From an uncultured Tateyamaria sp. (GTDB lineage: Bacteria; Pseudomonadota; Alphaproteobacteria; Rhodobacterales; Rhodobacteraceae): DNA of 64,000 nt. The stretch is from positions 496,001-560,000 of the forward strand of contig NZ_CANNDS010000002.1 in NCBI RefSeq assembly GCF_947503415.1, written 5' to 3'. The notes under the pieces are model-generated. The model had not been told where the DNA came from and made no database searches. It saw nothing but the letters and a program-made list of their open reading frames with translations. Positions 62,496-64,000 of the stretch are shown here, piece after piece; the stretch's first letter is position 1, and each line of letters starts with the position of its first letter. Both the position numbers and the translations under genes were made by a program.

Positions 62496-62987
62496 TTAAC
62501 CCAGATCCCCGTCCAAATAGGCGGACGGGTCCAGATCCGGGTCGAACCCGTCATCGTCCAGCGCCGCGATGCTCTCGTCATAGGCGTCGGGCTGCCAAAT
62601 CTCGAACGTATCGCCCGAGGACACAAAACGCGCCATGCCGTCCAGACCAATCTTTTGGCGCAGCTTGGCGGGCAGCACGATGCGGCCCGTGTCGTCCACA
62701 ACAGTCTCTATGGATTGCGCGGAGTACAACCGCTCCATCGCCTTCCGCTTGGCCGAGCCGCGCGGGAATTTTGCAATCTTGTCGTCCACCTCATCCATGG
62801 CCTCAATGGTGAAGCCTTCAAGGTAGTCGCGTGTAGCGCCGCCATAGACGATGATGATGCGGGGTGGCAGGCCGTCGGTCCAGTCAGGGTCGCAGGCTTC
62901 GATCACACGACGAAACGAGGCCGGGATAGACACCCGCCCCTTTGCGTCCACCTTGTGGTCGCTTTCGCCTCTGAACCTGCGTGCCAC
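62496..62987 (-). CDS. mraZ: transcriptional regulator MraZ
   Basis: MraZ is a ring-forming DNA-binding regulator of the dcw cluster that represses its own operon in E. coli. The track start (63161) reads through a leader hairpin. I use GTG 62987, giving 163 residues with the family N-terminus ARRFRGESDHKVDAKGRVSIP; ATG 63020 is possible. The two AbrB-like halves each carry a D-x-x-G-R motif (DAKGR, DDTGR). AAAGGGA precedes the GTG. It heads the mraZ-rsmH-ftsL-ftsI-murE-murF-mraY transcript. Confidence 0.95.
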   Translation of the reverse strand: MARRFRGESDHKVDAKGRVSIPASFRRVIEACDPDWTDGLPPRIIIVYGGATRDYLEGFTIEAMDEVDDKIAKFPRGSAKRKAMERLYSAQSIETVVDDTGRIVLPAKLRQKIGLDGMARFVSSGDTFEIWQPDAYDESIAALDDDGFDPDLDPSAYLDGDLG

Positions 62988-63074: not shown

Positions 63075-63290
63075 GAAAAGAAAACGGCGGGTTGATCTGC
63101 TGCCACTGATCAACCCGCCGCCCTCGTCCCGCTGAGCGGGAAGTCCAGCTGCGCGCGCCACCTGGGGGGATGTCTGCTCGCTCGCGCGCCGGATCTCTGG
63201 TCTGATGAAAGCGAGGTGCCTGTATGAAACCTGCTAGAGTTTTGTTGTCTGCGTGGGGTCGTTTGTTGCCCCGTGCTCGTTCTCATCTGA
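63075..63290 (-). ncRNA. UpsM-like leader sRNA upstream of mraZ
   Basis: The mraZ leader contains a strong terminator-like hairpin (63086-63119) followed by a U-rich tail, about 100 bases before the mraZ start. In Rhodobacter sphaeroides the dcw cluster has an extended leader from which the small RNA UpsM arises. A transcript from about 63290 to 63075 would be a little over 200 bases, the UpsM size. The 5' end is a guess: a weak TTGCGT-N19-TACCTA stands just upstream and overlaps the TGGGA boxes at 63308-63332. A smaller hairpin CCCGCT-G-AGCGGG (63128-63140) lies inside. Confidence 0.55.
63086..63119 (-). terminator. terminator/attenuator hairpin in the mraZ leader
   Basis: GGCGGGTTGATC-N10-GATCAACCCGCC is a perfect 12-bp stem, followed on the minus strand by GTTTTCTTTTC. 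It lies 98 bases before the GTG chosen for mraZ, so transcripts must pass it to reach the dcw genes. Confidence 0.8.
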
Positions 63291-63307
63291 TGTCATTAGG
63301 TATGACG

Positions 63308-63332
63308 TGGGAAAACATGGGACGCAATGGTT
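63308..63332 (+). promoter_or_regulatory. MraZ-box-like triplet
   Basis: TGGGA-N5-TGGGA-N5-TGGTT with exact 10-bp spacing lies in the mraZ leader, on the strand opposite to mraZ. E. coli MraZ binds TGGGN direct repeats separated by 5 bases. It overlaps the weak promoter suggested for the leader sRNA. Confidence 0.65.
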
Positions 63333-63479: not shown

Positions 63480-63493
63480 CCCACAATTTCCCA
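63480..63493 (-). promoter_or_regulatory. MraZ-box-like pair and candidate distal mraZ promoter
   Basis: On the minus strand TGGGA-AATTG-TGGGA-GGTTT leads into TTGATC, which stands 18 bases before TATGTT. Box and -35 are therefore adjacent. Both hexamers are 4/6 matches, so the promoter is tentative. Confidence 0.5.
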
Positions 63494-63605: not shown

Positions 63606-63650
63606 CCCATGATTTCCCACACCACGTCCCATGAACGCCCATCCGGCCCA
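63606..63650 (-). promoter_or_regulatory. five TGGG repeats with about 10-bp spacing
   Basis: CCCA occurs at 63606, 63616, 63628, 63638 and 63647 on the plus strand, i.e. five TGGG repeats on the minus strand at steps of 10, 12, 10 and 9 bases. They end 63 bases before the divergent gene start and about 620 bases from mraZ. Confidence 0.6.
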
Positions 63651-63713: not shown

Positions 63714-64000
63714 ATGTCACACGCCATCCGCATCTTCACACACGCCGTATCGATGGTGTTCCGCGATCTCGGCGCCACACTCCGCGCGACATCCGTGGGC
63801 GTCATCCTGATCGCCCTGGCGTCCGCCCTTCTGATCGCCATTGCGCCCGGCCTTGCCAGCGGCGTCACGACGTTTGATGATCCGGAGGCGCTGGCGCAGA
63901 TTCCCAATTTCGGACTGGTGGTGCCAGCCTTCTTCCTTATGGCGATCGGGTATCTGGTCATGATCGCTGCATGGCACCGCTTCGTGCTGCTGCCCAACGA
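63714..64000 (+). CDS. membrane protein, C-terminal part outside the window
   Basis: This gene is not given as an ORF in this frame because it runs off the right edge. From ATG 63714, with GAGG upstream, at least 95 codons are open: MSHAIRIFTHAVSMVFRDLG, then a helix VGVILIALASALLIAIAPGLA and a second helix LVVPAFFLMAIGYLVMIAAW. I do not recognise the family from this part; the N-terminus resembles integral membrane proteins of unknown function. It is divergent from mraZ and shares its 726-base intergenic region. The minus-strand ORF 63524-63997 is its shadow. Confidence 0.75.
   Translation, partial: MSHAIRIFTHAVSMVFRDLGATLRATSVGVILIALASALLIAIAPGLASGVTTFDDPEALAQIPNFGLVVPAFFLMAIGYLVMIAAWHRFVLLPN

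Follow-up and report, generated by a model that had tools for sequence, protein, structure and literature searches.

The mraZ leader and its terminator hairpin

The window, that is, the whole 64 kb stretch of DNA that was analysed, carries on its minus strand the gene mraZ, followed downstream by rsmH/mraW, an ftsL-like ORF, a PBP gene (ftsI) and a Mur ligase gene (murE). Given these genes, the dcw cluster begins here. The ftsL-like ORF is without a Pfam match and was named from its position and look. A divergent hydrophobic ORF (63714-63998, plus strand), also with no Pfam match, extends past the end of the window. MraZ was sought in viral contigs as well, and none was found there. The leader in front of mraZ possesses an R1-R4 architecture with a final intrinsic terminator; its parts, with the evidence for each in brackets, are the following.

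63299..63327 (-): predicted promoter, TTGCGT (63327-63322), 17 nt, CATACC (63304-63299) (homology to the R. sphaeroides TSS)
63308..63321 (-): MraZ-box-like direct repeat, TGGG-N6-TGGG on the plus strand, between the -35 and the TSS (locus comparison)
63076..63289 (-): predicted UpsM small RNA, ~205-214 nt, TSS near 63289-63287 (homology to R. sphaeroides UpsM)
63276..63287 (-): R1 closing stem, 5' strand, GATGAGAACGAG (covariation)
63255..63272 (-): R1 inner hairpin, GGGGCAACAAACGACCCC (folding, R1 model)
63218..63234 (-): site GCAGGTTTCATACAGGC, complementary to a StsR-like RNA (complementarity search, cofolding, 75-locus comparison)
63204..63215 (-): 3' strand of the R1 closing stem, CTCGCTTTCATC, where RNase E is published to cut the UpsM of R. 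sphaeroides (130-nt fragment mapping, covariation)
63144..63193 (-): R2 hairpin with near-invariant apex GCGAGCAGACATCCCCCCAGGTGGC (family alignment)
63128..63140 (-): R3 hairpin, CCCGCTCAGCGGG (folding, alignment)
63076..63120 (-): R4 intrinsic terminator, conserved loop GTGGCAGC and U-rich tail (hairpin scan, alignment)
62496..62987 (-): mraZ, GTG start, first dcw gene (Pfam MraZ, 57.8 bits)

On the minus strand R4 consists of a left arm CGGCGGGTTGATC (63120-63108), a 10-nt loop AGTGGCAGCA (63107-63098), a right arm GATCAACCCGCCG (63097-63085) and a tail TTTTCTTTT (63084-63076). The sequence-only reading had described a perfect 12-bp hairpin with a U-rich tail about 100 bases before mraZ. 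The perfect pairing, the tail and the distance (97 nt from the end of the stem to the GTG at 62987) stand, and the stem is corrected to 13 perfect base pairs, lengthened by G-U pairs. The U tail is broken by one C, which counts against the explanation favoured below. When hairpins with a stem of at least 12 perfect pairs, a loop of 3-12 and at least 6 T in 10 were sought on both strands of the window, R4 alone was recovered, and no hairpin of this kind appeared in 12 dinucleotide shuffles, each of one strand. A pattern scan did not list R4 because it permits loops of 3-8 only. For the 223-nt leader the folding energy is -90.7 kcal/mol, which corresponds to z = -4.7 vs shuffles.

Homology to UpsM and conservation of the structure

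In R. sphaeroides, UpsM (RSs0682) is a 206-nt small RNA derived from the 268-nt 5' UTR of the dcw cluster (PMC5089854). The leader described here is present in 29 of 30 mraZ loci from the host genus and ten other genera. A covariance model of hairpins R2-R4 (model R1, not to be confused with hairpin R1) was built from 20 of those loci, with no R. sphaeroides sequence among them, and matched the R. sphaeroides leader with 101.4 bits (E 5e-16). The proposal of an UpsM-like small RNA, for which a covariance search with R. sphaeroides UpsM had been suggested as a check, is thus borne out, since a model free of R. sphaeroides recovers the UpsM locus of that species and the published leader and RNA map onto the alignment. 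The R. sphaeroides genome (G094) was recognised by its reaction-centre L chain, identical both to the query from R. sphaeroides and to reaction-centre entries of the PDB. Its mraZ GTG lies 180 nt past the start of the model R1 match, which places the beginning of the published 268-nt leader at GAGATGAG and the end of the 206-nt RNA in the U tail. Since the alignment runs through these points in the window too, the TSS was placed near 63289, and with the R. sphaeroides TSS carried over by alignment an UpsM of 205-214 nt is predicted.

Model R1 matched 265 of 298 Rhodobacteraceae genomes (297 genera), nearly always once per genome; UpsM, previously tied to one model organism and a few relatives, is thereby extended to 264 of the 297 genera sampled. 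An order-level sample gave matches in 146 of 150 genomes, every one of them in Rhodobacteraceae, and among 237 genomes from the rest of the Alphaproteobacteria there was none. All 76 matches examined lie upstream of mraZ as judged by profile search; a strict MraZ sequence expression recognised the gene in only 44 of the 76. A scan of the leader against Rfam returned no match at E <= 5. Among 20 species of the genus the RNA is 93-95% identical, vs 90% for early mraZ.

The segment 63289-63076 (-) is therefore very probably the UpsM homologue of this Tateyamaria-type genome, and its terminator would be a partial one, controlled by MraZ and by StsR/RNase E. With R. sphaeroides UpsM it shares the site before mraZ, hairpins R1-R4, the terminator, a length of about 206 nt, the conserved loops and the RNase E segment. 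It differs in the sequences of the R4 and R1 stems, by way of compensatory changes, and in a longer spacer to mraZ in this genome; R. sphaeroides has in addition an sORF peculiar to it.

In an alignment of 74 distinct sequences, 97% of the cells of R2-R4 stay paired and 27 of 35 pairs are altered on both sides (8.5 in shuffles), figures biased in favour of the structure by an alignment that was fitted to it; slid structures reduce the paired cells to 34-40%. Weber 2016 considered R1 hardly conserved (PMC5089854). A separate model of hairpin R1, built from 15 sequences, matched 54 of the 63 loci that had not been used to train it, including two (L067 and L103) missed by the R2-R4 model, and over these 54 loci 15 of 16 pairs are altered on both sides vs 8.6 in shuffles. 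Of the unpaired parts of the RNA, UUCAUACAGGC, the apex of R2 and the loop of the terminator (GUGGCAGC) are near-invariant.

R. sphaeroides UpsM yields a 130-nt 3' fragment after an RNase E cut (PMC5089854). Mapped on locus L066, this fragment puts the cut at about CUUUCAUC, i.e. in the 3' strand of the R1 stem, and CUUUCAUC lies within the R1 stem in the window too. The covariation of R1 suggests that pairing with StsR could open the RNase E site across the Rhodobacteraceae.

The terminator loop GUGGCAGC (63097-63107 and family loci) is almost invariant and the stem around it varies freely through compensated pairs. As a terminator does not need an invariant loop, the loop probably binds something. 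The R2 apex GCGAGCAGACAUCCCCCCAGGUGGC (63144-63193) is also nearly invariant, and StsR pairing does not account for it. One genome (G020, leader L025 / L067) retains R1 and the StsR site GCAGGTTTCATACAGGC; R2 and the conserved terminator loop are gone, and another hairpin precedes mraZ.

A StsR-like RNA, the likely partner

Ten genomes were searched for sequences complementary to UUCAUACAGGC; besides UpsM, this revealed a second conserved locus in at least eight of them. This second RNA has a promoter (CTTGG...GTATAA) followed by ACUGCUCGAUAGGUUUCUUGCCUGUAUGAAACCUGCC and a terminator formed by a GC hairpin with a T run, and is 72-77 nt long. Its covariance model (model R2) found it in 292 of 298 Rhodobacteraceae genomes. 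In the present genome it lies on another contig, outside the window (G000:C5:56933-57014, plus strand), and in the R. sphaeroides genome at G094:C4:1443993-1444074. About 40 nt of it are invariant, even where UpsM has drifted, and no co-variation with deviating UpsM sites was found. Outside the Rhodobacteraceae the best match reached 34 bits, vs 104-113 inside it, and was not accepted. Rfam gave sub-threshold matches only; one of these, BjrC1505 (RF02356), scored 30.5 bits, below its gathering score of 50, and the relation was not accepted.

Gruetzner 2021 is reportedly a study of StsR and UpsM. StsR of R. sphaeroides (formerly RSs0827) is a 72-nt RNA that depends on RpoHI/RpoHII and binds UpsM (PMC8307010). 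The second RNA resembles it in length, promoter, terminator and complementarity to UpsM, and on these traits it was taken to be, apparently, StsR.

The StsR-like RNA of this genome pairs with 18 nt of UpsM with no mismatches. As intramolecular pairing makes a simple duplex energy misleading here, the two RNAs were cofolded; the ddG was -20.4 kcal/mol vs -6.1 +/- 2.8 when the partner was shuffled (none of 150 shuffles did as well). In the predicted complex the R1 stem is lost, and weak pairing with StsR takes up part of the segment that holds the cut site. For the pair from R. sphaeroides, which has one mismatch, the cofolding energy was no better than that of shuffled partners. The weak pairing at the cut site and the R. 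sphaeroides energy both count against the explanation favoured here.

Proposed control of the dcw cluster

The predicted promoter has a weak -10 whose exact hexamer is uncertain, and a sigma-70 scan did not list 63299..63327. Of 75 diverse loci, 51 have a relaxed form of the MraZ-box-like repeat at the corresponding place, where shuffles predict 1.1; in other bacteria MraZ binds repeats with a period of about 10 nt (PMC7761207, PMC5282649). Among the nearest known systems are MraZ autoregulation and the E. coli dcw/mraZ leader (mraZ1p); the latter is likewise a promoter of mraZ and dcw, but its 5' UTR is 38 nt long and contains neither this terminator nor the small RNA (PMC5089854).

By analogy with R. 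sphaeroides, from which transcription, termination, read-through rates and the actions of Hfq, RNase E and StsR are carried over, control would proceed as follows. Transcription would start near 63289 from a promoter that is probably MraZ-repressed; most transcripts would end at R4 and give a small RNA of about 210 nt, and a minority would run on past it into mraZ and the dcw genes. Under stress or in stationary phase an RpoH-type StsR would pair with the 17-nt site in R1 and open the R1 stem, exposing the CUUUCAUC region to RNase E in the dcw leader as well as in free UpsM. The suggestion that the whole cluster is controlled by read-through at R4 likewise rests on this analogy, and a constitutive partial terminator with StsR/RNase E control, as in R. 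sphaeroides, fits the data best.

Three other explanations were weighed. A structured leader, a strong terminator and genes downstream are the layout of an attenuator, and a riboswitch-like device in which a signal-driven conserved antiterminator turns dcw on could also draw on the possible R2-R4 refolding in R. sphaeroides noted by Weber et al. (PMC5089854) and on the capacity of the R4 left arm, once the right arm is deleted, to pair upstream in many sequences. The upstream partner of that arm is inconsistent across species, however, and the refolding was not found conserved by Weber et al. (PMC5089854). A candidate antiterminator in which the left arm of R4 pairs with the linker of R1 was rejected: within species it paired no better than after a between-species swap (p 0.74), a test that the true R4 arms pass. 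As the search yielded no conserved antiterminator, there is no support for a switch-type attenuator, which appears very unlikely, and partial termination controlled by MraZ and StsR/RNase E is preferred to a riboswitch. It is scarcely credible that R4 is an ordinary terminator of an upstream transcript, with a separate mraZ promoter nearer the gene and the small RNA incidental. Within a long intergenic region a strong terminator might serve only to insulate mraZ, but conservation covers the promoter, R1, R2, R3 and the loops in addition to the terminator. The spacer to mraZ, in contrast, is only 43% identical across the genus and varies from 48 to 148 nt, and the genus comparison found no conserved sequence between terminator and mraZ, which speaks against a conserved promoter there. 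Such an unconserved spacer fits the situation in R. sphaeroides, where mraZ lacks its own promoter and relies on about 1% read-through (PMC5089854).

The remaining alternative concerns the R1 site, which might serve a DNA element, a protein or something else, with its complementarity to StsR incidental. The constancy of StsR where the UpsM site deviates would agree with this, as would the existence of further StsR targets, e.g. rpoE mRNA (PMC8307010). Against it, at least 15 of the 17 positions of the site match in 65 of 75 loci, vs a maximum of 12 in shuffles, and binding of StsR to UpsM in R. sphaeroides has been published (PMC8307010, PMC8625941); an incidental match is accordingly unlikely.

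The UpsM/StsR system itself is already known (Weber 2016, PMC5089854; Gruetzner 2021), and as UpsM and its StsR-like partner are kept in nearly the whole family, the locus is regarded as a well-supported member of that system and not as a new one. New beyond the cited literature, with Gruetzner 2021 outside the comparison, are the count across the family, the covariation seen in R1 and a family-wide StsR-like partner with a fixed pairing site. Taken together, we think it reasonably probable that UpsM and StsR make up an ancient module of two RNAs in nearly all Rhodobacteraceae, in which a near-unchanging stress RNA (about 40 invariant nt) acts on one fixed site in a division-gene leader, the R1 stem that guards the RNase E site is kept by compensatory change, and a MraZ box lies on the same promoter. 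With the box on the UpsM promoter, MraZ and stress inputs would converge on one leader. The StsR pairing site is now defined in a testable form. Marine roseobacters are abundant, and little is known of how they couple division to stress.

Four of the eight TGGG-N6-TGGG repeats in the window lie upstream of mraZ (63308-63321, 63480-63493, 63606-63619 and 63628-63641). Boxes occur at similar places in several related species, and the retention of the upstream ones in several relatives suggests more than one MraZ site.
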